IMG/VR virus record: IMGVR_UViG_3300036859_000227
Location: 1 to 32,546 of that record
DNA from: a virus
Length of the DNA: 32,546 nucleotides
Reading direction: 5' to 3' (one strand)
A program made the position numbers and the translations under genes. The notes below the pieces were generated by a model that was not told the origin of the DNA, ran no database searches, and saw nothing but the letters and a program-made list of their open reading frames with translations. Below are positions 9,287 to 32,412 of this stretch, in pieces. Numbering within the stretch: position 1 is the first letter of the stretch; each line of letters starts with the position of its first letter.

Positions 9287-9580
9287 ATGGAGAAAGCGGA
9301 TTCAGTCCTGCTGCTCGAAGCGATCGATGCTCGGCGGCGCAAGTTCACGCACGAAGACGGCTCGACCGAGGATGTGCTGGGTCTGTTCATCACGGTCAAG
9401 CGCAGCGTCGACGGCGTACTGCTCGAGATGCAGTTGCCGGAGATCCTTGTGCAACTGCACGCGGCGTTGAAGCTGCCGGGGGCCATACACGATGCATTGG
9501 CCCGGCACTTTCCAGACGAGCTATCCGCTTGGATTGCGGCCAACCACCAGTCAGGATCCGCGTCGACGGACCTGCACTGA
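9287..9580 (+). CDS. Hypothetical small phage protein
   Basis: 97 residues from ATG 9287, with a textbook AGGAGG at 9275-9280. The sequence is protein-like: an acidic N-terminal helix (EKADSVLLLEAIDARRRKF), a strand region (EDVLGLFITVKRSVDGVLLEMQL) and a helical end (PEILVQLHAALKLPGAIHDALARHFPDELSAWIA). It is alone on the plus strand, facing apart from the CII-like gene, with the 9135-9286 gap presumably holding both promoters. No family recognised. Confidence 0.68.
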   Translation: MEKADSVLLLEAIDARRRKFTHEDGSTEDVLGLFITVKRSVDGVLLEMQLPEILVQLHAALKLPGAIHDALARHFPDELSAWIAANHQSGSASTDLH

Positions 9581-9743
9581 TCACATGGAAGCCGGCGATG
9601 CGTCTGATCTCGTCGGCATCGAACAGCCCGCCGCACGTCGCATCGAGCGCCGACGGATCGACCGCGCTCGCCACGGGCACCGCAGGCACACGCACCGGCG
9701 CGAACGCAGCGAACACAGCCCCGAACAGCGAGCGGCGGCGCAT
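9396..9743 (-). CDS. Possible exported small protein, 3' half antisense to the neighbouring gene
   Basis: ATG 9743 comes one base after the Cro-like stop, so it would be translated together with it. The first 54 residues look real: a basic start then a hydrophobic stretch (RRRSLFGAVFAAFAPVRVPAVPVASA), a likely signal peptide, and GGLFDADEIRRIAGFHVISAG. From about 9580 the frame continues antisense to the gene at 9287-9580 and looks like an Arg/Ser/Ala shadow. Either a shorter gene lost its stop or the overlap is real. No family recognised. Confidence 0.4.
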   Translation of the reverse strand: MRRRSLFGAVFAAFAPVRVPAVPVASAVDPSALDATCGGLFDADEIRRIAGFHVISAGPSTRILTGGWPQSKRIARLESAGPMHRVWPPAASTPRAVAQGSPATASRAVRRRRCA

Positions 9744-9744
9744 G

Positions 9745-9948
9745 TCAGGCGGCCTTGGCGGTGGCGGTGAGCAGGTACTCGCGCAGTTGCGTCAGCGTGG
9801 CGAAGCCTGGATTCGGGATCTTCCCGCGCACGAACTGTGAGATCCACGAGTAGCTGACCTTGGACTCGGCCGCGATCAGCTTCCAGTCGCCGCGCCTGCT
9901 CTCCAGCAGGTCACGGACCTCCATGTCGAGGGGCTTGGCGTCTTCCAT
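9745..9948 (-). CDS. Cro-like helix-turn-helix regulator
   Basis: 67 residues from ATG 9948. The body (DLLESRRGDWKLIAAESKVSYSWISQFVRGKIPNPGFATLTQLREYL) is a five-helix lambda-repressor/Cro fold with the recognition helix around SYSWISQFVRG. It has no oligomerisation or cleavage domain. It faces away from the CI-like gene across a 73-base region holding two operator sites, the classic phage switch arrangement. Which of the two proteins acts as Cro and which as repressor cannot be settled from sequence. Confidence 0.75.
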   Translation of the reverse strand: MEDAKPLDMEVRDLLESRRGDWKLIAAESKVSYSWISQFVRGKIPNPGFATLTQLREYLLTATAKAA

Positions 9949-10021
9949 GGGCGCCAGTATCGCAAAGTTTTGCGGCTTTGAGAAGCAACACTTTGCGAGC
10001 ACCCATCAACAGACTGCCGCC
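9949..10021. promoter_or_regulatory. Divergent promoter-operator region between the two regulators
   Basis: Contains a perfect palindrome CGCAAA-GT-TTTGCG at 9961-9974 and an imperfect copy on the other strand at 9983-9996 (12 of 14 bases). Their centres are 22 bases apart, about two DNA turns, so two dimers would sit on the same face. The same site type recurs at 10958-10994. Promoter hexamers are not clear in either direction. Confidence 0.68.
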
Positions 10022-10387
10022 ATGCGGCAAAAATCCATAAATGAGATCGTCGCTGACGCCCTCAAGCACTACATGGGCGACCGGTGGAACCAGTCCACGT
10101 TAGGCAAGGCGGCTGGCGTCGCTCCCAATACGGTCGGCAACGCGATGAACCCTGAGCGGCGCGAAGCGTCGGCTTCCGGCAAGGAACCATCGATCACGCT
10201 CACGCAACTGGATCGCATCGCGCAAGCGCTTGGAGTGACTGTCGCCGACCTGGTCAGCGACCGCACTGCGCACGATCGCGCTCTGATCCTCCGCGAGCGC
10301 GCCGCTGAGTACTACAAGGAGCACGGAGAATTGCCGAGTTGGGCGCCGCACGAGCAACCCCATGGGAAACGCCTCGGCGCAGGGTGA
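10022..10387 (+). CDS. CI-like XRE-family repressor (DNA-binding domain only)
   Basis: 121 residues from ATG 10022. The helix-turn-helix domain covers about residues 5-85 (NQSTLGKAAGVAPNTVGNAMNP, then SITLTQLDRIAQALGVTVADLV, the signature end of an XRE domain). A 20-residue insert (ERREASASGKEPS) lies between the recognition helix and helix 4. The C-terminus is a short helix (LILRERAAEYYKEHGELPSW), with no LexA/CI-type self-cleavage domain, so RecA-driven induction by self-cleavage is not expected. It probably binds the CGCAAA operators. Confidence 0.75.
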   Translation: MRQKSINEIVADALKHYMGDRWNQSTLGKAAGVAPNTVGNAMNPERREASASGKEPSITLTQLDRIAQALGVTVADLVSDRTAHDRALILRERAAEYYKEHGELPSWAPHEQPHGKRLGAG

Positions 10388-10516
10388 GCCTGGGGCACGT
10401 GTACAGGCTGCCGCGCGCATTGGCGCGACGCGTCCACAGAATTGCGGACTTCAAACCCCTGGTTCGGGTGGAAGCAATCGACCGGAGTTGGGGGCTCTAC
10501 TGAGGGAGAAACGAGC

Positions 10517-10894
10517 ATGCGGAAAATCCTGACCCTGATCGTGGTGGCAGTCTCCGGCTGCGCGGCACCCGTCTACGTCCTGAGCGACGAGGAGCGGCAA
10601 CAGCTCGCTCAACCGGTCGAGTGCCGCGGCGCAGAGCCTTGTTCGGCGCTATGGCGGCGTGTGCAGGCCTGGGTCGCCCGCAATTCCGGCTACAAGATCC
10701 AGACTGCCAGTGATGCCATCGTGCAGACGTTCAATGCGCAGGACTACTCCACTTCCTGGGCCATGCAGGTTGTGCGTGAGCCTGTTGGCAACGGGGTCGA
10801 GCGACTGAGCTTCAGCGCATCCTGCGGCCGCGCGCCCATCTGTGGCCAGTCCGCAGATCAGGTCAGAGCACGCTTCCATCGCGAGATGCGTTAG
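10517..10894 (+). CDS. Small lipoprotein of unknown function
   Basis: 125 residues from ATG 10517, preceded by GAGGGAG. The N-terminus is a lipoprotein signal (RKILTLIVVAVSGC), with Cys15 as the lipid-attached residue (VSGC lipobox). The mature part has four more cysteines in two groups (PVECRGAEPCSALW and SASCGRAPICGQ), likely paired in disulfides outside the cytoplasm. It stands alone between the repressor and a terminator, in the position of a lysogenic-conversion (moron) gene that could be expressed from the repressor transcript or its own promoter in the prophage. No family recognised. Confidence 0.72.
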   Translation: MRKILTLIVVAVSGCAAPVYVLSDEERQQLAQPVECRGAEPCSALWRRVQAWVARNSGYKIQTASDAIVQTFNAQDYSTSWAMQVVREPVGNGVERLSFSASCGRAPICGQSADQVRARFHREMR

Positions 10895-10915
10895 GCCCCA
10901 CCGCGACCCCTGCCC

Positions 10916-10938
10916 AGCCCGCCGAGTGCGGGCTTTTT
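10916..10938 (+). terminator. Intrinsic (rho-independent) terminator after the lipoprotein gene
   Basis: AGCCCGC (10916-10922) pairs perfectly with GCGGGCT (10928-10934) around a 5-base loop, followed by a T run (10934-10938). It separates the repressor/lipoprotein unit from the early operon promoter that starts 20 bases further on. Confidence 0.85.
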
Positions 10939-10957
10939 CACGCCTGCGCGACAGCCT

Positions 10958-10994
10958 CGCAAAGTTTTGCTTGACGCTAGCGCAAAGTTTTGCG
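10958..10994 (+). promoter_or_regulatory. Second operator pair and probable early promoter of the plus-strand operon
   Basis: CGCAAAGTTTTGCT at 10958-10971 (13 of 14 matches) and the perfect CGCAAA-GT-TTTGCG at 10981-10994, with centres 23 bases apart. A good -35 element, TTGACG, lies between them at 10971-10976. A -10 element at normal spacing would overlap the end of the second site, though the hexamer there (GAGACT) is poor. Binding of the phage repressor would block this promoter. The first gene starts at 11027. Confidence 0.7.
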
Positions 10995-11026
10995 AGACTG
11001 CTCCCCATCGTAAACGGGAGCCCCAG

Positions 11027-11185
11027 ATGCAAACCACCTTTCAGATCGCCGTGCTGCGCGCCAAGTGCGTCGCGCGGCGCAGCGCCAAGCGCGCGGCCGA
11101 ACTGCTGATCGCGGCCGGCGCCGAGTTCGCCGACGCGGTGCGGTTCGTTCTGTCGGTGCTGCGCTCGCAGCGGGTGTCCGCATGA
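11027..11185 (+). CDS. Small helical protein, first gene of the early operon
   Basis: 52 residues from ATG 11027, with GGGAG upstream. Basic and fully helical (QIAVLRAKCVARRSAKRAAELLIAAGAEFADAVRFVLSVLRSQ). First product made from the repressor-controlled promoter; no family recognised. Confidence 0.62.
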   Translation: MQTTFQIAVLRAKCVARRSAKRAAELLIAAGAEFADAVRFVLSVLRSQRVSA

Positions 11186-11502
11186 GCGCCAGCACTCCCG
11201 CCCTCGACCGAGCCGTGATGCGCCTGCTGCGCGCAGTAGCCGACCAGATGCCGCCGCGTCCTCCGATGTACTTCGCTGCCTGTGGCCGGCGCCGCGGGTT
11301 CCTGTCGGTGTCGGACATGCAGGCCTACGAGGTCGGCTACTGGAGCCACCGAGACGGCGCGGCGATGCCCGCGGAGCGCGGCCCGGCGTTCGACGGCTGG
11401 ATGGATCGCGCAGCGGAGCCGACCGAGCGGATGGTGAGCGATCCGGCGCTGGTGCGCGTGCGCGACCTGGGCACCGGCATGCAGTCGGTGGTGCTGCTGT
11501 GA
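11182..11502 (+). CDS. Hypothetical early phage protein
   Basis: 106 residues, ATG 11182 overlapping the previous stop as ATGA. An N-terminal helix (PALDRAVMRLLRAVADQMP) is followed by a less ordered middle with FLSVSDMQAYEVGYWSHRDGAA and a short C-terminal part. No family recognised. Confidence 0.6.
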   Translation: MSASTPALDRAVMRLLRAVADQMPPRPPMYFAACGRRRGFLSVSDMQAYEVGYWSHRDGAAMPAERGPAFDGWMDRAAEPTERMVSDPALVRVRDLGTGMQSVVLL

Positions 11503-11699
11503 ACCGCCTGCACACCACACCACCCGAGCCCCTGGGCTGCCGCGAGTGGCGCGCCTTCTTCGACCCCGAGGGTCCGCAGGGCATGGGTCGGACCGAAGCC
11601 GCCGCGATCCGCGATCTGGTGATCGAGCGCGTCGAGGACTGGACCGCGCACCCCGAGGACTTGCCGCGCATCGTCGCGGCGCTGGAAGCGAAGCCATGA
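11499..11699 (+). CDS. Small acidic hypothetical protein
   Basis: 66 residues from GTG 11499 (GTGA overlap). Contains CREWRAFFDPEGPQGMGRTEAAAIRDLVIERVEDW and ends in a helix (LPRIVAALEAKP). No family recognised; part of the chain of coupled small early genes. Confidence 0.57.
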   Translation: MNRLHTTPPEPLGCREWRAFFDPEGPQGMGRTEAAAIRDLVIERVEDWTAHPEDLPRIVAALEAKP

Positions 11700-11995
11700 G
11701 CGCGCAGCACACGCCGGGGTCGTGGCACGTCCAAATCTACACCCACGAACCGTCGGCGGTTGTGGTCGATCGCGATGGATTTCCGATCGTTGATCTGGCC
11801 GCCGGTCGGCCGTACATCGGAGCATTCCGCGCCAACGCTCTATTGATCGGGCAGGCGTCCGCGTTGCTCGAGCAGGCGCGCCGCTTTCAGACAGCGCTGC
11901 GGCAGATCAACAACGGCACATGGTCGCAGCGCGACGTGCTCGCGATGCTGCCCGAACTCGACGCCGCGATCGCCAAAGCCGAGGGCCGGTCATGA
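11696..11995 (+). CDS. Hypothetical phage protein with GSW-type N-terminus
   Basis: 99 residues, ATGA-coupled at 11696. The opening QHTPGSWHVQIYTHEPSAVVVDRDGFPIVDLAA is a beta-rich block seen in many small phage proteins that start with HTPGPW, followed by ANALLIGQASALLEQARRFQTALRQIN, a helical second half. Members are uncharacterised. Confidence 0.68.
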   Translation: MSAQHTPGSWHVQIYTHEPSAVVVDRDGFPIVDLAAGRPYIGAFRANALLIGQASALLEQARRFQTALRQINNGTWSQRDVLAMLPELDAAIAKAEGRS

Positions 11996-12195
11996 GTGCC
12001 GGCTACGTCACGTTGTTGGGCGCCGAGGATGTGCAACGCGCTGGCAACAGTATGCGCGCCGCTGCCGACGACATGCTTCGCGCGGCCGCAACGATGGAAG
12101 CGGCGGCGGAGCGGTTGGCTCGGGCGATCGACGATGGCGCACAGCGCATGCAGGACGCCGCTGATCGCATCGCCAAAGCGACAGGTGCCGCATGA
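11992..12195 (+). CDS. Small amphipathic coiled-coil protein
   Basis: 67 residues, ATGA-coupled at 11992. After a short start it is one long Ala-rich amphipathic helix with heptad-like repeats (RAAADDMLRAAATMEAAAERLARAIDDGAQRMQDAADRIAKA). It resembles coiled-coil oligomerising peptides; function unknown. Confidence 0.58.
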   Translation: MSAGYVTLLGAEDVQRAGNSMRAAADDMLRAAATMEAAAERLARAIDDGAQRMQDAADRIAKATGAA

Positions 12196-12470
12196 CGCCG
12201 CGCAACACCGCCCACGCCGAGCGCGTGCTGTCGAACCTTGAGGCGCAGGGCTCGCAGCAGTGGCCGCTGGGCACTGCGCCAGTCATCGTCAACGCCGCCG
12301 TGCAGACGAAGGCCGCGGCCGTTGACCTTGCCGCGATGCTGCGCCGCGCCGAGCACCACCTCGCCAGCCTGGCGCTCGTCGAGGGCATCAAGCCCGAGGT
12401 CGCTCGCACGGCGCTGGCGTTCGTCAACGAGTCGCGCGCGCTGCGCCGGCGCTTGGGAGTGGTTCGATGA
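12192..12470 (+). CDS. Hypothetical small helical protein
   Basis: 92 residues, ATGA-coupled at 12192. An N-terminal charged helix (NTAHAERVLSNLEAQG), a short hydrophobic linker and a helical C-terminal half (VDLAAMLRRAEHHLASLALVEG ... VARTALAFVNESRALRRRLG). No family recognised. Confidence 0.57.
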   Translation: MTPRNTAHAERVLSNLEAQGSQQWPLGTAPVIVNAAVQTKAAAVDLAAMLRRAEHHLASLALVEGIKPEVARTALAFVNESRALRRRLGVVR

Positions 12471-12799
12471 ACGACGACCTTCTGCGCGAGACGCGCGAGA
12501 CGCTGCAGATCGCGCGCGAAGCGATCACAGCGAAGCAACAACGGATCGAAGGCGGCGGCCCGGCGTTCCCGAGCCACGGCTCGATGGGCGAGGTCGCACA
12601 AGAGGGCATGACGCTGCGCGCCTACCTCGCCGCGCACGCACCGACGCTGCCCAGCCCCGTCAGCCGCTTGTTCGCCGAAGCCCGCGCGCTGGCCAAAGGC
12701 AAGGGCATCGAGGCGGACCTGAACGACTACGCCCACGAGGCCGCGAACTGGGCGGTGCTGTACGCCGACGCGGTGATTCGACGACTGGAAAAACGATGA
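12467..12799 (+). CDS. Conserved phage hypothetical with GGPAFPS and GMTLR motifs
   Basis: 110 residues, ATGA-coupled at 12467. Contains EGGGPAFPSHGS and then EGMTLRAYLAAHA, the paired motif (GGPAFP ... GMSLRDWFA) of a widespread, uncharacterised family of small phage and prophage proteins. The N-terminus is a helix and the C-terminus (DLNDYAHEAANWAVLYADAVIRRLEKR) is also helical. The role is unknown; such genes usually sit in early accessory regions, as here. Confidence 0.74.
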   Translation: MNDDLLRETRETLQIAREAITAKQQRIEGGGPAFPSHGSMGEVAQEGMTLRAYLAAHAPTLPSPVSRLFAEARALAKGKGIEADLNDYAHEAANWAVLYADAVIRRLEKR

Positions 12800-13011
12800 T
12801 CAACCACCGCACCATGACCGGCCCGCGCCGCGTCGACACGCGCTGGCCGCAGACCGTTGTGATGCCGCGCCGCGCTGAGCGCACGCGCGACAACCCCTAC
12901 CGCCGGCAGCAGAGCCAGGGCCCGAACTGGGGCCTGTGCCTGATGTGCGCCGGCGCGGCGTTCCTGGCGTTCGCGTCGCTGCTGTACGCCTGCACGGGGC
13001 CGGCGCAATGA
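12796..13011 (+). CDS. Small basic protein with one membrane helix
   Basis: 71 residues, ATGA-coupled at 12796. The first 45 residues are strongly basic (GPRRVDTRWPQTVVMPRRAERTRDNPYRRQQ) and the last part is a membrane helix (WGLCLMCAGAAFLAFASLLYAC). Topology by charge suggests the basic part is in the cytoplasm. No family recognised. Confidence 0.58.
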   Translation: MINHRTMTGPRRVDTRWPQTVVMPRRAERTRDNPYRRQQSQGPNWGLCLMCAGAAFLAFASLLYACTGPAQ

Positions 13012-13196
13012 GCCCCATCGTTCACATCCGCACGCGCACGTGGCTCGACAACCTGATCGCGACGCTGCGCATGCGCTACCTGCGCTGGCAGTTGCACGAC
13101 AACGACCGCTATCTGCGCCAGCTCGAGCGCGCCGTCGTGGCGCATCGCCGCGAATCGCAGCGGCTGCGCTGCGAACTCGCGCACTGGGAACGCTGA
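13008..13196 (+). CDS. Small basic amphipathic protein
   Basis: 62 residues, ATGA-coupled at 13008, last of the small-gene block before recT. Rich in Arg and aromatic residues (TWLDNLIATLRMRYLRWQLHDNDRYLRQLERAVVAHRRE), one or two long helices that could bind nucleic acid or a partner. No family recognised. Confidence 0.57.
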   Translation: MSPIVHIRTRTWLDNLIATLRMRYLRWQLHDNDRYLRQLERAVVAHRRESQRLRCELAHWER

Positions 13197-13222
13197 TCCA
13201 TCACCACAACCGGAAACCAATC

Positions 13223-14086
13223 ATGTCCACTGAACAGTCCACCCAAGTCGCCCAGGCCGTTGCCGTGGTCGAAAAGTCTTCACAGACGTTCGACCTCAGC
13301 CCGCGCAATTTCGAGCAGGCGCTGGAGTTCAGCAAGTACCTGGCCGACAGCGAGCTCGTGCCGAAGGACTACCGCGGCAAGCCGGGCAACTGCCTCATCG
13401 CGATGCAGTGGGGCGCTGAGGTCGGCTTGAAGCCGCTGCAGTCGCTGCAGAACCTCGCGGTGATCAACGGTCGGCCGAACCTGTGGGGTGATGCCGTCAT
13501 CGCGCTGGTGCGGGCCAGCCCACTGTGCAAGTACGTCATCGAGGAAGACGACGGGCGCACCGCCACCTGCAGAACCTGGCGCGTCGGCGCGCCATGCGAG
13601 CAGGTCGAGCGGTTCGGCGTCGATGACGCAACGACGGCCGGGCTGTTCGGCAAGCAAGGCCCGTGGACGCAGTACCCGAAGCGCATGCGCAAGATGCGTG
13701 CGCGCGCCTTCCTGCTGCGCGATGTCTATCCCGATGTTCTGCGCGGCTTGCCGATCGCCGAAGAGTCCATGGACATGGCCATCGAGCGGGACATGGGCAT
13801 GGTCGAAGAGGTCGCAACACCGGCGCCGCCCGCGCTGCCGCCGTACCCGCAGGCCGACTTCGTCAAGAACCTGCCGGAGTGGACCAAGGTCGTCGAGTCC
13901 GGCCGCAAGAGCGCGCAGGCGCTGCTGTCGATGCTCTCGACGAAGGCGACTTTCACCGAGGCGCAAAAGGCCCAGATCCTGAAGCTCCGCGCGCCGGCCC
14001 CCGAACCGGCGCCGCCGGCGCAAGTCCCGGCAGAGCACGCCGAATTCGTCGCCGCGATGGATGGTTCTCAAGGGAGCGAGAAATGA
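13223..14086 (+). CDS. recT: RecT-family single-strand annealing protein
   Basis: Binds single-stranded DNA and promotes annealing in phage recombination, working with a 5'-3' exonuclease. 287 residues. The RecT core spans about residues 25-205 and carries LVPKDYRGKPGNCLIAMQWGAEVGLKPLQSLQNLAVINGRPNLWGDA, the most recognisable stretch of the family. The C-terminal 75 residues are Pro/Ala-rich and probably flexible. The downstream exonuclease gene overlaps its stop as ATGA, the expected partner arrangement. Confidence 0.93.
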   Translation: MSTEQSTQVAQAVAVVEKSSQTFDLSPRNFEQALEFSKYLADSELVPKDYRGKPGNCLIAMQWGAEVGLKPLQSLQNLAVINGRPNLWGDAVIALVRASPLCKYVIEEDDGRTATCRTWRVGAPCEQVERFGVDDATTAGLFGKQGPWTQYPKRMRKMRARAFLLRDVYPDVLRGLPIAEESMDMAIERDMGMVEEVATPAPPALPPYPQADFVKNLPEWTKVVESGRKSAQALLSMLSTKATFTEAQKAQILKLRAPAPEPAPPAQVPAEHAEFVAAMDGSQGSEK

Positions 14087-15801
14087 AGATTCACGACCTG
14101 GTGCAAGGCTCGCCAGAGTGGCGGGCCCATCGCGCACAGCACTTCAACGCCAGCGACGCGGCGGCGATGATGGGGTGCAGCGCCTACAAGACGCGCGCCG
14201 AGCTGCTGCGTGAGACGCACACCGGCGTCGTGCCGCAGGTGGATGCCGGCACGAAGAAGCGCTACGACGCCGGCCATCGGCTCGAAGCGCTGGCCAGGCC
14301 GCTGGCCGAGGAGTTCATCGGCGCCGAGCTGTACCCAGTTACCGGATCGGAGGGCCGACTGTCGGCCAGCTTCGACGGGCTGACGATGGACGAGACGACC
14401 GGCTTCGAGCACAAGCATCTGAACGCCGAGTTGAAGGCCATCTTCGCGAGCGGCACGGACGATGAATGCGGCCGCCTGCTGCCCGCCATGCATCGAGTGC
14501 AGATGGAGCAGCAACTCCTGATCAGCGGCGCGCAGCGCATCTTGTTCATGACGAGCGATTGGACCGCCGAGGGCGAGCTGATCGAGGAGCAGCACTGCTG
14601 GTACTACTCCGACCCGGCGCTGCGCCAGCAGATCATCGACGGCTGGATCCAGTTCGAGAAGGATCTCGCTGCCTACGTGCTGCCGCCGAGCGCCGAATCC
14701 GCGCCCGTCGGCAAGACGCCCGAGACGCTGCCGGCGCTGCGCATCGAGGTCACCGGCATGGTCACGGCCAGCAACCTCGCCGAATTCAAGGAAACAGCGC
14801 TCGCCGCGATCCGCTCGGTCAACCGCGAGCTGAGCACGGATGCGCATTTCGCCGATGCCGAGAAGGCGGTGAAGTGGTGCGCCGATGTTGAGTCACGCCT
14901 GCAGGCCGCGAAACAGCACGCGCTCAGCCAGACGGCGACCATCGATGCGCTGTTCAAGACGATCGACGACATCAGCGCCGAGGCGCGGCGCGTGCGCCTG
15001 GATCTCGACAAGCTGGTGACACGCCGCAAGACCGAAGTGAAGGAAGAAGCGATCGACCGCGCACGCAAGTCGCTCGCCGCCCACATCACCGCACTGAACG
15101 CTGAGCTCGCGCCAGCGTTCTTGAAGGTGCCGGTGTCCGACTTCGCGGGCGCGATCAAGAGCAAGCGCTCGATCGACAGCATGCAGGAGTCGTTGGACAC
15201 GATGCTGGCCGCCTGCAAAATCGGAGCCGATGCGGCGGCACGTGCCGTTCGCGCGAACCTCGCTACGTTCCGCGAGCGTGCAGCGGGGTTTGAATTCCTG
15301 TTCGCGGACCTGGGCCAGATTGCACTGAAGGCTGCAGACGACTTCGGCACTTTGGTTCAAGCGCGCATCGACGCGCACAAGGTCGCCGAGGCCGAGAAGG
15401 CGCGCAAGGCTCAGGAAGCCGCGGCGGAGCGCCAGCGCCAGGCCGAAGCAGCCGAGGCTGCCCGCGTTTCCGCAGCGGCTCTGCAGACGGCTGCCGCTCC
15501 CGCGCCCGTTCAGGCCGCGCCAGTGCCCGCAGTGCTGCCCATGCGGCACGCGGCGTCGATCCCTGCGCCGCGTGCCGACGAGCCAGCGACGCTGAAACTC
15601 GGAACGATCTGCGAGCGCCTCGGCTTCACGATCAGCTCGGCTTTCATGCACGAATCGTTGGGCATCAAGCCCGCTCGCGTAGAGGGTGCATCGAAGCTGT
15701 ATCGCGAGAGCGATTTCCTGCGCATCTGCGCAGCGCTTCAGGTGCACATCGGGCGCCTAGCCGAGAGCGTCGAAGCGCAGACGATGCGCGCGAGGGCTTG
15801 A
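14083..15801 (+). CDS. YqaJ-type recombination exonuclease with long C-terminal extension
   Basis: Probable 5'-3' double-strand DNA exonuclease making the ssDNA for RecT. 572 residues, far longer than a bare YqaJ domain (about 220). The nuclease part is residues 1-210: SPEWRAHRAQHFNASDAAAMMGCSAYKT, GHRLEALARPLAEEF with the first acid, then SFDGLTMDETTGFEHKHLN with the D...ExK active site. The following 300 residues are helical and coiled-coil-like (DUF1351-like), with an Ala/Gln-rich linker, and the end (LGTICERLGFTISSAFMHESLGI ... SDFLRICAALQVHIGRL) resembles a small DNA-binding domain. ATGA-coupled to recT. Confidence 0.88.
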   Translation: MKIHDLVQGSPEWRAHRAQHFNASDAAAMMGCSAYKTRAELLRETHTGVVPQVDAGTKKRYDAGHRLEALARPLAEEFIGAELYPVTGSEGRLSASFDGLTMDETTGFEHKHLNAELKAIFASGTDDECGRLLPAMHRVQMEQQLLISGAQRILFMTSDWTAEGELIEEQHCWYYSDPALRQQIIDGWIQFEKDLAAYVLPPSAESAPVGKTPETLPALRIEVTGMVTASNLAEFKETALAAIRSVNRELSTDAHFADAEKAVKWCADVESRLQAAKQHALSQTATIDALFKTIDDISAEARRVRLDLDKLVTRRKTEVKEEAIDRARKSLAAHITALNAELAPAFLKVPVSDFAGAIKSKRSIDSMQESLDTMLAACKIGADAAARAVRANLATFRERAAGFEFLFADLGQIALKAADDFGTLVQARIDAHKVAEAEKARKAQEAAAERQRQAEAAEAARVSAAALQTAAAPAPVQAAPVPAVLPMRHAASIPAPRADEPATLKLGTICERLGFTISSAFMHESLGIKPARVEGASKLYRESDFLRICAALQVHIGRLAESVEAQTMRARA

Positions 15802-15803
15802 GC

Positions 15804-16163
15804 ATGGCCACCACCACACCCGATCCCGACATTTGGGTTGTCGTCTGCCAGAACGACCGGCCGCACCCACGGTGGGGTGCCGACGAAGGCGGTCCGCTGG
15901 TGCACGAGACGTACACACGCGGCGCCACGCGCGAAGCGGCGATGAAGCGTGCCGACGAACTCAAACGATGGGGCCCGTGCCGCATCGCTCGGCTCGTCTT
16001 CGACGACATAGTGCCCGACCCGTCCGACATGCTCGACGCGTTGCGGCAATGGCGCAACGCCGAGCGCGCCGACGACGGCAAAGAGTTCGCGAACGCGCAG
16101 CGCGCCCGCGATGAACTGCTCGCGAAGGTCGAAGACCCGCCAGCGGTGAACACGTCGTTCTGA
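15804..16163 (+). CDS. Hypothetical phage protein
   Basis: 119 residues from ATG 15804 (GAGGG just upstream). N-terminal beta-rich part (PDIWVVVCQNDRPHPRWGADEGGPLVHETYTRGATREAAMKRADELK) then helices. The shape resembles small phage proteins that act on tandem nucleic-acid or protein substrates, but no family is recognised. Confidence 0.6.
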   Translation: MATTTPDPDIWVVVCQNDRPHPRWGADEGGPLVHETYTRGATREAAMKRADELKRWGPCRIARLVFDDIVPDPSDMLDALRQWRNAERADDGKEFANAQRARDELLAKVEDPPAVNTSF

Positions 16164-16757: not shown

Positions 16758-17417
16758 ATGCTTTTCCAGATCACCGATTTCACTGAGGCGCGACTGAACA
16801 CTGTGACCCCGCGATCAGAGCACCACGGCGAAGACGAAAAGCCCGCCGTCACACTGGGCGTCGAGGTGACCACCAGCGGCGCGATCCTCGACACGATCGA
16901 CAAGGATCTGCGCGGCCGCGCGTTCAAGCGCAACGGCACCAAGCCGCTGCCGGGCATGGAAGACGCGCTGACCGTCTTGGCATGCAACAGCATCGAATAC
17001 ATCGCAGTCGCGAAGAAGTTCGAAGGCTGGACGCTCGAAGTCGATACCGACATCGACGACGAGAAGGCGATGACCTTCGGCGGCTGCAAGATCGACAAGC
17101 TCAAGGTCGAGCCGCTGCAAGGCGGCAGCGTGAAGCTGCGCATGCGCATCGGCACCAACGACATCGACGCGGCGAGCAGCGGCATGCTGAACATGCACGT
17201 CGGGCAACCGATCTGGATCAAGGTGACGCCGCCGAAGCCCGGCGAAGGCAAGCCGACGCCCGACGCCAACGGCAAGCAGCCCGACGCGACCGATATGTTC
17301 GTCGCCGAGCACGGCGAGAAGGCGGCCGGCGCGACGCCAGCGAAGAAGACAGCCGCGAAGAAGCCGGCGCCAGAGCACGCCGCGGCGAAGGGCAAGGCAA
17401 AGCCGGGAAAGCGGTGA
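16758..17417 (+). CDS. Conserved phage protein of the recombination region, Lys/Ala-rich tail
   Basis: 219 residues from ATG 16758, with AGGAG upstream. The first 165 residues are beta-rich (FQITDFTEARLNTVTPRSEHHG, then VTLGVEVTTSGAILDTIDKDLR, and GGCKIDKLKVEPLQGGSVKLRMRIGTNDID) and the rest is a Pro/Lys/Ala tail typical of nucleic-acid contact. I recall similar genes beside RecT-type modules, and ssDNA or double-strand binding is a guess only. No family is firmly recognised. Confidence 0.66.
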   Translation: MLFQITDFTEARLNTVTPRSEHHGEDEKPAVTLGVEVTTSGAILDTIDKDLRGRAFKRNGTKPLPGMEDALTVLACNSIEYIAVAKKFEGWTLEVDTDIDDEKAMTFGGCKIDKLKVEPLQGGSVKLRMRIGTNDIDAASSGMLNMHVGQPIWIKVTPPKPGEGKPTPDANGKQPDATDMFVAEHGEKAAGATPAKKTAAKKPAPEHAAAKGKAKPGKR

Positions 17418-17488
17418 CGGCCGAGCCGGTGCGATCTGCAACCGGCTGGCCGTTCCCGCGCGAGTTCAACGACGAGAAGGGGCTTTGA
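17414..17488 (+). CDS. Possible 24-residue coupled peptide
   Basis: GTG 17414 overlaps the preceding stop (GTGA), and the stop at 17486-17488 shares its A with the next ATG (TGATG). The peptide reads TAEPVRSATGWPFPREFNDEKGL. The double coupling suggests it is translated, but its size leaves doubt. Confidence 0.4.
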   Translation: MTAEPVRSATGWPFPREFNDEKGL

Positions 17489-17739
17489 TGGATCACCGTA
17501 CCTACGGCGAGACACGCAACTGCAAGGGTTGTCGCTACTGGTCAGAAATGATCGCCGGCAACGTGCACAACGGCGGCGGCGCGATCGAAGCGCTGTGCCT
17601 CGCGCCGAAGCCGGCGCCGTTCCATGGGAAATACAAGAACCCGCGGAGCACGTGCGAAGCGTGGGCCAGCGGGCACCTGGGAGCGGTCGACGAACCCGGC
17701 GCCGATGTGTTTCGCTACGAGCGCGAGGCGGCAGCATGA
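17488..17739 (+). CDS. Small four-cysteine protein, possible zinc finger
   Basis: 83 residues from ATG 17488. Cysteines occur as NCKGCRYWSEM, then ALCLAPKP and STCEAWA, an arrangement (CxxC ... C ... C) that could bind one zinc. Phage proteins of this kind (CRYW with a later CEAW) are common and uncharacterised. Coupled to both neighbours. Confidence 0.6.
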   Translation: MDHRTYGETRNCKGCRYWSEMIAGNVHNGGGAIEALCLAPKPAPFHGKYKNPRSTCEAWASGHLGAVDEPGADVFRYEREAAA

Positions 17740-18914
17740 AGAAACTAGCCGCTTGTTTGCTGCTACTGACGGCGCTGTCCGCTGGCGCGCAATGGCACCT
17801 GAACTTCCCCACGCAGGCGGCGTGCGCCGATGCGGCCGCCTCTGTCGTCGGGCCCGCTGGTGGCGCGACAACCTGCACCACCTCGCGCACGGTATCAATC
17901 CCGGTGCCGGTCAGCATCACCGCCCACGGCGCGAAGTGCGACGGCGCCGATGACCACGCCGCCATCACCCGCGCGATCTCCGCGGCGAAGGCGAAGGCGC
18001 TGCCGGTGCTGATCCCGGCCGGATCGTGCGCCTACAGCGACGTCATCCACCTCGACGGCGTCAAGCTCACTGGCACCGGCGATGCCTCGGCCCTCTTCGC
18101 GCTCAATCCGCTGCGCTCCGCGATCGTGCTGCAGGGCACCGGCGCCGAGGTGCGCAGCCTGCGCCTGACCGGCAACGCCACGGCGCGCGGCTCCACGCGC
18201 GAATCCTCGCGCATCGTGGCGCACGGCGCGACCAAGTGGATGGTCGACGGCGTGCTGATCGACAACGCAGCCGGCGCTGGCATCCGCTCCGACAACAGCA
18301 GCAACGGCACGGTTTCGAACAACCGCATCACCGGCACGCTTGCCGATTCGATCCACATCACCGACCGCTCGAGCTACATCACCGTAACCGGCAACACGAT
18401 CCGCAACAGCGGCGACGACGGCATCGCGGTGGTCTCCTACAAGCCACAGGGTGGCGTCGTGCACCACGTGACCGCGAAGGGAAACACCATCAGCGACAAC
18501 AAAGGCGGGCGCTCGATGTCAGTCGTCGGTGGCTCGGACGTGCTCTACGAGGGCAACCGGATGACGAACAACGTCGGCGCCGCGTGCCTGTACCTGGCAC
18601 AGGAGGCGAGCTACAACACCTACCCGGTGTCGCGGTTCGTCGGCCGCTACAACACGCTGGCGACCTGCGGAAACCCGGCCATCGGGCACGCGGCGGTGAT
18701 GCTTTTCACCTCGGGCACCGCTGGCGACAGCAATACGAATGTCACGCTGACGCGCAACGACATCAGCCAGGCGGCGCGCGGCATCCGCGTATTCGGCAGC
18801 AACACCGGCGTCGTGCTCGACAGCAACAAGATCGACTCGCCGCAGCCGCTGGTGATCCAGATCGAGGGCGTGAGGGTGGTGCCGTATTCGACTGGGCTGG
18901 CGGGGGTTCAGTGA
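17736..18914 (+). CDS. Secreted right-handed beta-helix protein (pectate-lyase-3 fold)
   Basis: 392 residues, ATGA-coupled at 17736. Residues 1-19 are a Sec signal peptide (KKLAACLLLLTALSAGAQ). The N-terminal motif ITAHGAKCDGADDHAAITRAISAAKAK is the FGAKGDG.TDD.AAIQAA opening of the pectate-lyase-3 family. Residues about 100-370 hold parallel beta-helix repeats rich in N-x-I/V turns (NSSNGTVSNNRITG, NNVGAACLY, NTNVTLTRNDISQ). Such folds bind or cleave polysaccharides and form tail spikes, but catalytic residues cannot be assigned. A secreted protein inside the early, repressor-controlled operon is unusual. Confidence 0.82.
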   Translation: MKKLAACLLLLTALSAGAQWHLNFPTQAACADAAASVVGPAGGATTCTTSRTVSIPVPVSITAHGAKCDGADDHAAITRAISAAKAKALPVLIPAGSCAYSDVIHLDGVKLTGTGDASALFALNPLRSAIVLQGTGAEVRSLRLTGNATARGSTRESSRIVAHGATKWMVDGVLIDNAAGAGIRSDNSSNGTVSNNRITGTLADSIHITDRSSYITVTGNTIRNSGDDGIAVVSYKPQGGVVHHVTAKGNTISDNKGGRSMSVVGGSDVLYEGNRMTNNVGAACLYLAQEASYNTYPVSRFVGRYNTLATCGNPAIGHAAVMLFTSGTAGDSNTNVTLTRNDISQAARGIRVFGSNTGVVLDSNKIDSPQPLVIQIEGVRVVPYSTGLAGVQ

Positions 18915-20590
18915 GCGCATCAAAGTTCCCCATCGCGATGCTCGGCCAGCACCTTGCCATCGTTGGCAAGGCCGGCAGCGGCAAGACCTACGCCGCCAAG
19001 GGCCTGGTCGAGATCCTGCTCGCGGAAAAGCGCCGCGTCTGCATCCTCGACCCCACCGGCGTGTGGTATGGCCTGCGCAGCTCGGCCGACGGCAAGCGCG
19101 CCGGCTACTCGGTGGCAGTGTTCGGCGGCCCGCACGCCGACGTGGCGATCGCTGATCAATCCGGCGCGGCGCTGGCGCACCTGGTGGCCACGAAGAACCT
19201 GCCGACGATCATCGACCTGTCTGAAATGCTGATCGGCCAGCGGCACCGGTTCGTGACCGACTTCGCCGAAGCGCTCTATCGCGACAACCGCCAGCCGCTG
19301 CACCTCGTGATCGACGAGGCCGACGAGTTCTGCCCTCAGAACCCGCTGCCCGAGACGAAGCGGATGCTGCACCACGTCGACCGCATCGTGCGCCGCGGCC
19401 GCGTGCGCGGCTTCCGGGTGACGCTGATCACACAGCGGCCGGCGGTGCTGCACAAGAACGTGCTGACGCAGGCGAACACGCTGATCGCGATGCGCCTGAC
19501 CGCGCCGCAGGACCGCAACGCGATCAAGGCGTGGGTCGACGGACAGGGCGACGCGGTGCAGGGAAAGGCGGTGCTCGATTCGCTGGCGCGCCTGCCGCGC
19601 GGCGAGGGCTGGGTGTGGGCGCCCGAGCTCGACTTTCTGCAGGTGGTGCCGTTCCCGAAGATCACCACGTTCGACAGCTCGCGCGCGCCGGACGAAGGCG
19701 ACCAGGTCGTCGAGCCGACGAAGCTGGCGGCCGTCGACCTGGCCGAGATCAAAGAATCGTTCGATGCCGTCGAGCAGGAAGCGCGCACGCTGGTGGAGCT
19801 GAAGGCCGAGGTCGCGGCGCTGAAGCGCAAGCTCGCCGCGGCCGAGAAGACGCTGCCGAGCGTGCGCGGCCCGAGCGAGGCCGAGGTGCAGCGCCGGATC
19901 CGCGAGGCCGTTGCGGCTGCCGCGCCAGCCGGCGTCACCGCATCCAAGACGCTGCGCGCCGCCGTCGAGAAGATCGCCGCAGGCCTGCAGGCGGTGCAAG
20001 CTGAACTCGCCGGCGTGCCGGTCGACATCGTGCCGCGTGCCCGCACAGTGGTGCGCACAGATCCCGCGCCAGCGGCGCGCAACGGCACCCCGCACGCCAC
20101 CGTCGACGGCCTGCGCGCCGGCGCCGTGCGCATCCTGCAGGAGCTGGCCGCGCGCGCGCCAGCGGGCTACAGCCGGCCCCAGGTGGGCGGCCTGACGCAG
20201 TTCGCGCACAAGGGCGGGACCTTCACGACGTACATCGGCGACCTGCGCCGCTCAGGCTTCATCGAAGAGCGCGGCGGCCTGATGTACGCCACCGAAGCCG
20301 GGATCGCAGCGCTGGGCGACAAGGTGCCGGCGGCGTCGACATCGCACGACGAGGCGATGGCGCTGTGGCGCAAGGCGCTGCGCTCGGGCGCGTTCGCGAT
20401 GCTCGAGGCGATCGTCACGGCCGGGCGCGACGGAATCTCGCGCGACGACGTCGCGGCCGCGGTGGGTATGACCGCCAGCGGCGGCACGTTCACCACCTAC
20501 CTGGGCGACCTGCGCCGCAATGGCCTGATCACCGAGCAGCACAAGCGCTGCACGGCGAACGACATCCTGTTCCCAAAGGGGCGCGCGTGA
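18911..20590 (+). CDS. HerA/FtsK-like ATPase with tandem C-terminal winged-helix repeats
   Basis: 559 residues from GTG 18911 (GTGA overlap with the beta-helix gene). The N-terminal ATPase has Walker A GKAGSGKT (residues 19-26), Walker B LHLVIDEADEF (about 130-140) and a sensor LITQRP, as in HerA/VirB4/FtsK-type DNA pumps (DUF87-like). A coiled-coil middle (KAEVAALKRKLAAAEK) leads to two related domains: GGLTQFAHKGGTFTTYIGDLRRSGFI and then AAAVGMTASGGTFTTYLGDLRRNGLI. That duplication in one gene is notable. It may process or translocate DNA, or act in a defence-like role; the function is not established. Confidence 0.82.
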   Translation: MSASKFPIAMLGQHLAIVGKAGSGKTYAAKGLVEILLAEKRRVCILDPTGVWYGLRSSADGKRAGYSVAVFGGPHADVAIADQSGAALAHLVATKNLPTIIDLSEMLIGQRHRFVTDFAEALYRDNRQPLHLVIDEADEFCPQNPLPETKRMLHHVDRIVRRGRVRGFRVTLITQRPAVLHKNVLTQANTLIAMRLTAPQDRNAIKAWVDGQGDAVQGKAVLDSLARLPRGEGWVWAPELDFLQVVPFPKITTFDSSRAPDEGDQVVEPTKLAAVDLAEIKESFDAVEQEARTLVELKAEVAALKRKLAAAEKTLPSVRGPSEAEVQRRIREAVAAAAPAGVTASKTLRAAVEKIAAGLQAVQAELAGVPVDIVPRARTVVRTDPAPAARNGTPHATVDGLRAGAVRILQELAARAPAGYSRPQVGGLTQFAHKGGTFTTYIGDLRRSGFIEERGGLMYATEAGIAALGDKVPAASTSHDEAMALWRKALRSGAFAMLEAIVTAGRDGISRDDVAAAVGMTASGGTFTTYLGDLRRNGLITEQHKRCTANDILFPKGRA

Positions 20591-23096: not shown

Positions 23097-23344
23097 TGGC
23101 TGCCATCCGCCTACCCGATCGGTCGATCGTGAACTGGGATACCGGTGCGCACACGTCGCTCGACCTCGACAAGCGCCTGCGCTGCGACTTCAGCGAAGAC
23201 GGCAACGGCCAGTCCCGCTGCTGGATATGGGAACGCCACCGCGACGACCCGCGCAAGCTCTTCTGCCGCTACTACGGTGTGCTGCCGAAGCACAGCGCGC
23301 CGGCGGTGGTCGACGACTTCGGCGACCTGGTGCTGCTGTCATGA
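23096..23344 (+). CDS. Hypothetical small phage protein
   Basis: 82 residues from ATG 23096, sharing one base with the upstream stop. Contains RLRCDFSEDGNGQSRCWIWERHRDDPRKLFCRYYG, which has several Cys, Trp and acidic residues. No family recognised. Confidence 0.57.
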   Translation: MAAIRLPDRSIVNWDTGAHTSLDLDKRLRCDFSEDGNGQSRCWIWERHRDDPRKLFCRYYGVLPKHSAPAVVDDFGDLVLLS

Positions 23345-23940
23345 CCGACGACCTGCACCTCAACCGCGACCAGCTCGCTGCCCTGACCGGCACCGTGCAG
23401 CCGAAGCGCATGGTCGCGTGGCTCGAGGCGCGGCATTGGGTATTCGAGCCGCCGGCGCGCCGCGGCGACATCCCCAAGGTGGCCATCGCGTACCATGCGG
23501 CGCGCATGACCGGCCAGCCTGATGAGCCGATCTCGCCCGATCTCGCTGGCCCGGATTTCAGCCCCGTGCATTGGCTGGATCAGAACTGGGCCGGCCTGGT
23601 GCTATCGCCTCGTGATCTCCCGGGGATCGACTTCGATACGCCTGACGCTGCACCGGTGGCCGCAGGCGTGTACTTCTTGTTCAGCGACAACGAACTGCTC
23701 TACGTTGGCCTGAGCAACAACGCTCGGCAACGTCTCCTCGAACACTGGCGTCAAGGTGAGATCCCGTTCGACAACTTCAGCTTCATCGAGTGCCGGCACG
23801 GCGTCTATCCGCATGTCGAGCTCGCGTACATCGATGCGCTCGAGCCGCCGTACAACACCCTATACGGTGTCGCAACATGGGATGGGCACGCACGAATGGT
23901 GCAGCGCATCCGCGATGTATGGGGAGCGGCGCGTTTATGA
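23341..23940 (+). CDS. GIY-YIG nuclease-like protein fused to a DUF4224-like domain
   Basis: 199 residues, ATGA-coupled at 23341. Residues about 6-55 (LNRDQLAALTGTVQPKRMVAWLEARHWVFEPP) resemble DUF4224, a small domain common near phage integrases. The second half carries the GIY-YIG core: GVYFLFSDNELLYVGLSNNARQRLLEHW (from residue 109) with GVY and YVG, an Arg and a later Glu/Asn (VELAYIDALEPPYN), as in UvrC-type or homing nucleases. The next gene is a separate DUF4224-like protein. The unit could regulate or process recombination, but this is inference. Confidence 0.74.
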   Translation: MTDDLHLNRDQLAALTGTVQPKRMVAWLEARHWVFEPPARRGDIPKVAIAYHAARMTGQPDEPISPDLAGPDFSPVHWLDQNWAGLVLSPRDLPGIDFDTPDAAPVAAGVYFLFSDNELLYVGLSNNARQRLLEHWRQGEIPFDNFSFIECRHGVYPHVELAYIDALEPPYNTLYGVATWDGHARMVQRIRDVWGAARL

Positions 23941-24578: not shown

Positions 24579-25676
24579 ATGGGTCGCAGACGCAAAGACG
24601 GTGACCCGTTCGGCCTGGCCGGCACGCGTATCGTCTGCCGCCGTGGCAAGTTCTACTACCCGCACCGCGACGGCCGCTGGGAACCGCTCGGCGCCGATGT
24701 GGCGGTGGCCAAGCGCATCGCGGCGCGCATCCGCAACCCTGGCGAGGCCTTCGGCACGCTGGGCTATTGGTTCGGCGAGTTCCTGACCGACTGCCGCGCG
24801 CGCGTCAAAGCCGGCACCATGTCGTCGCGCACGCTTGCCGATTACGAGGGCTACGCGGCCGACGATGGCCCCCTGGTGGCCGCCTTTGGCAAGCGCTACC
24901 CCGAGCAGATCACGCCCGACATGGTGCAGGCATACCTTGAGTTCAATGCGAGCCTGAGCCCGCCGCGGCCCGTGCCAGCGAACCGCGAGCGCGCGTTTCT
25001 GTCGAGCTGCATCAGCTGGCTGCTGCGCACGGGCAAGGTGCCGGGACTGAAGGTGAATCCGTGCATGCGCTCGAGCGGCGTGCAACGCAATCCGGAGCGA
25101 AAGCGCGAGCGCTACGTCACCAACGAGGAATACCTCGCGGTCTACGAAGCCGGCAACCGCGCCGTGCGTCTGGCCATGGAGCTCGTCTACCGCACGCTGC
25201 AGCGCCCCGAGATCGACGTGCTTGCGTGGACGGCCGCCGATGTGCGCAAGAAGGATGGCGGCAAGGTGTTGCACGTGCGCCAGCACAAGACCGGCCGGGT
25301 GCTCGACATCGCGCTCGAGGGCGCGCTCGGCGAGCTCGTCGAGCAGGCCATCGGCACGGTGCCAACGCTGCGGCAGCCGATCCTGCACCGCCTAGATGGC
25401 AAGCCCTACACCTACGATGGGCTGTCGGCGATGCTTCGCCAGGCGCAGGATCGCGTGCGAAGTACGCATTCGAAGGTAAGCGGTCCGCTGGCGACGATGG
25501 CACCATTTGGGCTACGCGACCTGAAGGGCAAGGGTGCGACGGACATGTGGCTGGCTGGTGTCCCGATCGAACAGATCCAGCTGCTGTGCGGGCACGCGAG
25601 CAAGACGACGACGGAGACGTACATCAAGGCACGTTGGCGACCAACGGCAAAACCCAACAATCGGCGCATCGGCTGA
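24579..25676 (+). CDS. int: Tyrosine-recombinase integrase
   Basis: Inserts the phage at attB by strand exchange. 365 residues from ATG 24579, with an N-terminal arm-binding part (residues 1-60), a core-binding domain (about 60-170) and the catalytic domain. Catalytic residues seen: Arg209 (QRPEID), Lys237 (HKTGR), Arg313 (FGLRDLK), His339 (LCGHASK) and the nucleophile Tyr348 (TTETYIK). In the usual HxxR box the His is Phe310 here. The attP core lies 130 bases downstream, as expected. Transcribed in the same direction as the early operon. Confidence 0.94.
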   Translation: MGRRRKDGDPFGLAGTRIVCRRGKFYYPHRDGRWEPLGADVAVAKRIAARIRNPGEAFGTLGYWFGEFLTDCRARVKAGTMSSRTLADYEGYAADDGPLVAAFGKRYPEQITPDMVQAYLEFNASLSPPRPVPANRERAFLSSCISWLLRTGKVPGLKVNPCMRSSGVQRNPERKRERYVTNEEYLAVYEAGNRAVRLAMELVYRTLQRPEIDVLAWTAADVRKKDGGKVLHVRQHKTGRVLDIALEGALGELVEQAIGTVPTLRQPILHRLDGKPYTYDGLSAMLRQAQDRVRSTHSKVSGPLATMAPFGLRDLKGKGATDMWLAGVPIEQIQLLCGHASKTTTETYIKARWRPTAKPNNRRIG

Positions 25677-31122: not shown

Positions 31123-32412
31123 TCACTCGCGGGTGGCGATGTCTTCGCCGATCAGTTGGTATCCGCCCGCGTCCGGGTGAACGCCGTCAGCCTCGCTGTC
31201 CGACGCCCGCTGGAAGCCGCTGTCGAGCATCGGCTGCATGATGTCGATCGCCAGGTCGGGCTGCGGGCTTAGCGTCGGGCGGTCGTTGTCCCACCAGTCG
31301 AGCATGTAGTCGCGCAGGTCTGGCGTCGGCGTGTTGTCGGTCGAGGTGCTGGTGCCATACATCGCATTCAGCAGCACGCAAGCTGCACCCGAGGCCTGAA
31401 TCGTCGCGATGCTGTCCTCGATGTTTTCGGTCCGGTTGCCCGCGCCTGTGTTCGGATCGATGCCGAGCGCTTCGTCGTTCGTGCTCGCTCCAAGAAAAAC
31501 GACGCGCGCGCTGTGCGCTGTCGCTTCGGCGATGCGCGCCAGGATCTGCGCGCTGCTCTGCGAGCCGATGCCCTTGTTCACGATGAGATTGTTGCGAAGC
31601 GACTGCCCGATCAGGCAGTGCTTCATCCACGTGTTCGCGTAGTTGTCCTCGCCGGCGTAGACGCTCGGATTCGGATCGAAGAAGTTGTGCCCTGCCACGA
31701 TGCTGTCGCCTATCGCGAGATAGTTCGGCCGCGTGTAGAGGATCCAGTCGTACTCCACCCACTGACCAGCGTGCGCGCTGGTGACCATGCGCACGTCGGC
31801 GAGCACTCCATAGTTCGAGTTGAATGTGTAGGAGCCGCGGAAGTCCCATTTGCCGGTGCCTGGCTCGCGATAGAAGAGGTTCACGCATGACCGGTTGCGG
31901 TCGATGTGAATCGCAAACTCTTGCTGCGTGCTGTAGGTGACGCCGGTCGCGATGTTGTTGCCGGTCGACGAGTTGTAGTCGAACGTGCTGATCGTGCCGA
32001 GCTGGGCCGCGCTCGTCTCGTAGTTGTAGCCCATGATGATGTCGAACACATTCGTCGGGCCCGACGCTCTGAAGTTCAGATAGCCGAACTGCCCGGCGAC
32101 GTGATTCGCTGCCATCTTGATCAGCAGCACATAGTCGTTCGATGCGGGGCCGGCGAGGTTCAGCGTCGCGATGGCGGACGATCCGGTGTGGCGCACCGTG
32201 CTGCCCGATTGAGAGATGGTGCCGCTCGTCACCGACCATCCAGAAGTCGATGTGCCCTCGTTGCCGGCCGTGATGTTGTCGTCGACCGGGATCGGGAGCG
32301 TCACACCGGCCGTGATCGGCAGCGCCGTGTCGGTCTCGATGGCGATGCCCAGTGCCGGCGGCGGTGCCGCGCCGCCACCATAGGCCATCAGTAGCTGCTG
32401 CAGAACGCTCAC
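31123..32412 (-). CDS. Tail protein with SGNH/GDSL-hydrolase domain
   Basis: 429 residues from GTG 32412, overlapping the previous stop as GTGA; an upstream GTG at 32439 would overlap more. The N-terminal 210 residues are beta-rich (WSVTSGTISQSGSTVRHTGSSAIATLNL ...), typical of tail appendages. The C-terminal 200 carry SGNH blocks: AIGDSIVAGHN (Ser nucleophile), NKGIGSQSS (Gly), FLGASTND (Asn) and DGVHPDAGGYQLIG (Asp and His). Such domains deacetylate host surface polysaccharides, so this is probably a receptor-modifying tail spike. Confidence 0.87.
   Translation of the reverse strand: MSVLQQLLMAYGGGAAPPPALGIAIETDTALPITAGVTLPIPVDDNITAGNEGTSTSGWSVTSGTISQSGSTVRHTGSSAIATLNLAGPASNDYVLLIKMAANHVAGQFGYLNFRASGPTNVFDIIMGYNYETSAAQLGTISTFDYNSSTGNNIATGVTYSTQQEFAIHIDRNRSCVNLFYREPGTGKWDFRGSYTFNSNYGVLADVRMVTSAHAGQWVEYDWILYTRPNYLAIGDSIVAGHNFFDPNPSVYAGEDNYANTWMKHCLIGQSLRNNLIVNKGIGSQSSAQILARIAEATAHSARVVFLGASTNDEALGIDPNTGAGNRTENIEDSIATIQASGAACVLLNAMYGTSTSTDNTPTPDLRDYMLDWWDNDRPTLSPQPDLAIDIMQPMLDSGFQRASDSEADGVHPDAGGYQLIGEDIATRE

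Follow-up and report, generated by a model that had tools for sequence, protein, structure and literature searches.

Genetic context of the locus

The window, i.e., the whole stretch of 32,546 bases analyzed here, is the complete IMG/VR record IMGVR_UViG_3300036859_000227. Gene calling and PHROG matches identify it as a fragment of a lambda-like temperate phage. The minus strand carries cII-like, methyltransferase, O-like, P-like, and RusA-like genes together with TerL (gene calls, PHROGs). HTH regulators are located at ~9.7-10.4 kb, ahead of a tightly packed plus-strand run (~11.0-25.7 kb) that comprises recT, recE/YqaJ, small genes, the beta-helix and ATPase genes, a xis-like gene, and int. 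The recombination genes span 13223-15801 on the plus strand (PHROG 561 and 7655, gene calls), with recT at 13223-14086 and the recE/YqaJ exonuclease gene at 14083-15801. A gene for an 83-aa protein (17488-17739, plus strand), whose relatives occur on other viral contigs without a beta-helix gene, shares the bases ATGA with the beta-helix gene. The beta-helix gene itself (17736-18914, plus strand, ATG start, 392 aa) shares the four bases GTGA at 18911-18914 with the ATPase gene (18911-20590, plus strand, GTG start, 559 aa), so that the coordinates and the overlap given in the initial annotation hold.

The plus-strand gene at 20855-21805 matches PHROG 2045, which has no function label, and its product is presumably a member of the Gp37/Gp68 family. 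A single protein encoded at 23341-23940 (plus strand) combines an excisionase-like N-terminal match with an apparent GIY-YIG nuclease domain, the latter recognized by eye. The operon ends with the integrase gene (24579-25676, plus strand; PHROG 1, 1.9e-33). Downstream of it, the minus strand carries lysis genes and an SGNH-type tail fiber gene. This late tail protein (31123-32412, minus strand) matches tail fiber and lipase PHROGs and has an SGNH-like appearance. SGNH-domain receptor-binding proteins are common, and the two that were tested, from Klebsiella prophages, are active esterases (PMC13123978).

Located between the recT/recE-like genes and xis/int, the beta-helix and ATPase genes take a position that resembles the lambda pL operon. 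An early, repressed operon had been proposed for this region; gene order and context fit the proposal, with the terms “early” and “repressed” themselves being read from gene order. In position, the beta-helix gene would thus correspond to the exo-xis region of the lambda early left operon, where lambdoid phages keep early accessory genes that affect host physiology (PMC8614690). The window differs in having a gene for a predicted exported protein in this slot, no exported polysaccharide enzyme being described in the sections of that review consulted here.

The beta-helix protein: export signal, predicted fold, and putative active site

The beta-helix protein begins with a Sec-type signal peptide (MKKLAACLLLLTALSAGA, residues 1-18, 17736-17789, plus strand), which is recognized by eye and by hydropathy and consists of an n-region with KK, a hydrophobic core at residues 4-15, and a cleavage site AGA|Q. 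Residues 1-21 fall under a pLDDT of 50 in the AF2 model, which otherwise is of high quality (pLDDT 90.2). The right-handed beta-helix that had been proposed from the sequence is borne out by Pfam Beta_helix (59.4 bits, 4e-16, cut-off 25.9) and by the model, and the protein additionally exceeds the cut-off of CatAgl_D2 (PF22816, 31.4 bits, cut-off 27). When the model is compared to the PDB with Foldseek, ranks 1-7 are all taken by GH87 alpha-1,3-glucanases, which are also ranked first by sequence searches. AlgE epimerases, the RbmB lyase, and the PfbA adhesin match the model as well, below GH87. The PHROG matches are tail spikes; a head- or tail-binding domain is absent.

The putative active site resembles that of GH87. 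HMMER alignment to 6k0m (wild type) and 6k0p (D1045A) places D204 (18345-18347, plus strand) at the mutated residue D1045, which makes it the candidate general base. D227 and D228 (18414-18419, plus strand) align with the mutated residues of 6k0q (D1068A) and 6k0s (D1069A), respectively, and D227 would accordingly be the counterpart of the general acid. In GH87, D1068 is the proposed general acid, and either D1045 or D1069 acts as general base (PMC10696023). D204, D227, D228, and R259 are invariant across 27 beta-helix homologs, and H207 and E290 are retained in at least 90% of them. The GH87 enzymes (Agl-FH1, PDB 6k0m; 7c7d; 5zru) thus share with the window protein the right-handed beta-helix and an Asp triad in the same sequence frame. 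They differ in being larger chains with extra domains. At an identity of only ~20%, family resemblance does not reveal the substrate, and alpha-1,3-glucan is not assured. A polysaccharide is most likely the target of the protein.

Relatives on bacterial chromosomes

The closest relatives are encoded on Burkholderiales chromosomes (L042, 57% identity; L044, 54%; L043, 52%; L045, 51%; L046, 46%). Their N-termini are signal-sequence- or lipoprotein-like, some with additional N-terminal domains, and no prophage signs are found around these genes within the stretches read. In the phylogenetic tree, the window protein is placed among the Burkholderiales relatives (support 91), and the phage contigs L201, L034, L202, and L208 branch around this clade. 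At E ≤ 1e-40, close relatives are found in one of 399 genomes of the order. The best reading of these sequence relationships is that the beta-helix gene is host-derived, and the host of the phage is probably a member of the Burkholderiales or a related group.

Many of the chromosomal relatives lie among genes for exopolysaccharide (EPS) biosynthesis, which is not the case for the phage gene itself. L044 and L046 are located inside polysaccharide loci, and no clear EPS cluster surrounds the close relatives L042 and L045. The L046 locus (9431-15954), from Caenimonas, holds the beta-helix gene in two copies. Nine EPS/capsule markers were derived from the family's own loci L027, L028, and L046, of which only L046 belongs to the 79 chromosomal loci that were scored. 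At least two markers are present in 36 of the 79, and in 26 of the 32 Burkholderiales loci of at least 18 kb; the Saccharibacillus loci have none. Not a single marker is found in 20 control stretches taken from other parts of the same genomes or contigs. The Fisher value for 36/79 versus 0/20 (4e-5) is indicative only, since the markers stem from the family's own loci and the loci do not sample species independently. A 20-versus-20 comparison used cases that were picked after the 79-locus count, and the unselected 36/79 is therefore the figure to quote.

A characterized protein of this kind is WceF of Pantoea stewartii, an EPS-cluster beta-helix protein that has been shown experimentally to hydrolyze the bacterium's own EPS (PMC7949094). 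Like many of the chromosomal relatives, WceF is encoded in an EPS cluster, and it is exported. It differs in its Tat signal, its tailspike-like trimer, and its chromosomal location as opposed to the phage-borne window gene, and the likeness drawn here is one of described features. By analogy, the window protein is best read as resembling WceF in function and GH87 in its active site.

Relatives in other phages

Two scans with family profiles yield 26 viral contigs, seven of which are common to both. A signal peptide is missing from most viral members, and several, L035 among them, are encoded in tail or structural regions. Signal-peptide-like N-termini are found in the window protein, L040, and L204/L215, and lipoprotein- or membrane-anchor-like N-termini in L205 and L206. 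In L040, a 52-kb contig, the gene lies between ribonucleotide reductase and DNA polymerase genes, with exonuclease and Gp2.5-like genes nearby. In L204/L215, it is flanked by a QueD-like gene and terminase. L215 and the other end, L243, carry the same protein, broken by the ends of IMG/VR contig 3300015251_000001. L242 and L243 are the two ends of this contig, and as one beta-helix gene is split between them, the contig is probably a circular genome that was cut there.

In the tree, L040 and L204 group with each other (support 97), separate from the clade of the window protein, which suggests at least two entries of exported members into phages. This recurrence, in a small sample of sequences, suggests that an exported, non-tail placement is more than an accident. 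Searches of phage records and plasmids with the two window proteins give just distant single matches, and a near-identity DNA search of the window against phages gives none. The searches turned up neither another phage of this lineage, which would be a sign of selective retention of the beta-helix gene, nor a sister phage with exact synteny; an empty site can thus not be demonstrated.

The ATPase and its neighbors

The protein encoded downstream consists of a HerA-type ATPase core, a predicted coiled coil (~277-367), and two C-terminal winged helices. Walker A (GKAGSGKT, residues 19-26, 18965-18988, plus strand) and Walker B (LVIDE, residues 132-136, 19304-19318, plus strand) are both present, and DUF87 scores 33.6 bits (cut-off 23.2), in agreement with the P-loop ATPase that had been annotated. 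Across 13 homologs, G19, G22, G24, and K25 of Walker A are invariant, as are L132 and E136 of Walker B, with D135 being almost so. The AF2 model has a pLDDT of 83, and HerA proteins are matched in the PDB both by sequence and by fold. The winged-helix repeats (residues 401-454, 20111-20272, and residues 490-543, 20378-20539, both plus strand) are defined by alignment to each other and by helices and strands in the model. Their local score of 117 compares to 25.5 ± 4.5 in shuffles. Both repeats are real, but the description as near-identical is too strong, as they are ~44% identical across 54 residues and near identity is limited to the core GGTFTTYxGDLRRxG.

The RecA-like, FtsK/HerA-type core is shared with the hexameric DNA translocase HerA and with defense-associated HerA. 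HerA has an N-terminal HAS barrel that the window ATPase does not have, its P-loop beginning at residue 19, and the window protein carries the coiled coil and the two winged helices as extra elements. The score of the HerA equivalog is not reached (best NCBIfam 57 bits versus 850). A match to PHROG 2666, labeled terminase large subunit, spans only the ATPase core; the terminase reading is rejected because the phage has its own TerL, and the label is probably misleading here. A defense system with the ATPase as HerA partner was likewise considered and set aside, with the PADLOC matches (HerA, mad8) spanning only the core and the tested neighbors giving no match. From its model, the ATPase most likely acts on DNA, and fold and neighbors together suggest, as its likeliest role, a DNA-bound motor that serves the phage in recombination or replication.

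Searching viral contigs with a profile of the ATPase yields 209 relatives; the loci of 80 of them were retrieved, together with up to 10 kb of flanking sequence where available. Their conserved neighbors are, by sequence, early genes (integrase, Gp37/68, YqaJ, AAA ATPases, methyltransferases, SSB). A Gp37/Gp68-like relative lies near the ATPase, before or after it, in ~11 of 78 other loci. In one of the 80 loci, a signal-like protein of more than 150 aa is encoded directly upstream, with an N-terminus that is unconvincing as a signal peptide. The beta-helix family is found in none of the 80 (nine family members as queries, E ≤ 0.01). Conversely, the family occurs without the ATPase on bacterial chromosomes and in other phages, and no ATPase is present in the beta-helix loci L034-L120; among the later L201-L218 contigs, seven were read by gene calls only. 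A search for ATPase-bearing prophages in 399 and 289 genomes found none at E ≤ 1e-60, which shows little, as this search had no positive control. To judge from these loci, the ATPase is a widespread, stand-alone early gene of phages. For the ATPase, this is the outcome that the initial annotation had named as refuting a unit. The two-gene accessory unit that had been suggested is thus not upheld, and the two genes are best regarded as chance neighbors in a mosaic genome. The GTGA overlap tells little because an overlap of exactly four bases is the norm in this operon (15 of the 26 adjacent gene pairs of the plus-strand run).

Proposed role and alternatives

The explanation that we moderately favor is that the beta-helix gene is host-derived cargo of the exo-xis region and encodes a Sec-exported, non-virion, GH87-like hydrolase of host EPS, capsule, or O-chain, with the ATPase being independent and not a partner. 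Early expression, export, enzymatic activity, substrate, and benefit to the phage would be connected as follows. The protein would be made early, transcribed together with the recombination genes, and carried into the periplasm by Sec export. There, or acting from there, the enzyme would cut the infected cell's nascent surface polymer while that polymer is being exported. It would subsequently build up and be freed at lysis, and the freed enzyme may thin the surrounding matrix for the progeny. The ATPase would act separately, as an early phage protein that works on DNA with a HerA-like motor and winged helices.

Expression from the prophage could instead alter the surface of the lysogen through receptor trimming, superinfection exclusion, or biofilm behavior. 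Lysogenic conversion of this kind would fit the temperate nature of the phage and the predicted export and probable surface activity of the protein, as well as the effects of lambdoid exo-xis accessory genes on host physiology (PMC8614690). The gene, however, lies inside a run that is expected to be silenced by the repressor, and a consensus scan of 17417-17736, which covers one promoter type, finds no promoter-like site. Lysogenic conversion is possible but unlikely.

Rather improbable is a polysaccharide lyase, an epimerase, or a mere binder of polymer in place of a hydrolase. The beta-helix fold can also accommodate an adhesin, lyase, or epimerase, as the matches to AlgE, RbmB, and PfbA illustrate, but these rank below GH87 and the GH87 Asp triad is invariant.

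A displaced tail spike, i.e., a virion depolymerase whose gene moved to the early region and whose N-terminus is merely signal-peptide-like, would explain the tail-spike PHROG matches and the relatives without signal peptide in the tail modules of other phages (L035). Tail spikes combine a late position and a virion-binding N-terminus with the lack of a signal peptide, whereas the window protein has a clear signal peptide, no such binding domain, an early-operon position, and secreted chromosomal proteins as nearest relatives. The phage moreover carries its own late SGNH tail fiber, and the beta-helix protein is therefore not the missing receptor-binding spike. This reading is very unlikely, in line with the earlier distinction between the protein and a virion spike.

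Cooperation of the two genes, in which the ATPase would, for example, drive or control export or an activity at the envelope, is suggested by adjacency and overlap but is hardly credible and largely refuted already by the separate occurrence of both families, the ordinary overlap, and the HerA DNA-motor fold with its DNA-binding winged helices.

Significance

The hydrolase favored here would be a variant of known phage depolymerases, with its export, non-virion nature, and early placement hypothesized as the new part. Soluble and tail-spike depolymerases share with it the beta-helix and activity on polysaccharides; they are usually virion-associated late products without a signal peptide, in contrast to the exported window protein among early genes. 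Soluble phage depolymerases are known, and the literature discusses them as extracellular public goods with the potential to assist other phages or to exclude them (PMC7232179). As a tentative generalization, phages may repeatedly acquire exported hydrolases from the EPS loci of their hosts and express them early, alongside DNA-metabolism genes. The infected cell's own polymer would then be trimmed in the periplasm, and a pool of enzyme would be ready at lysis. This would constitute a class of Sec-exported, non-virion depolymerases apart from tail spikes.

Phage depolymerases have been studied mainly as virion spikes. If the proposal is true, some phages break down the slime or capsule of a cell from inside the infection, ahead of the next adsorption step and independently of it. 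This would bear on the spread of phages in biofilms, on competition between phages, and on searches for depolymerases, which are usually directed at tail genes.
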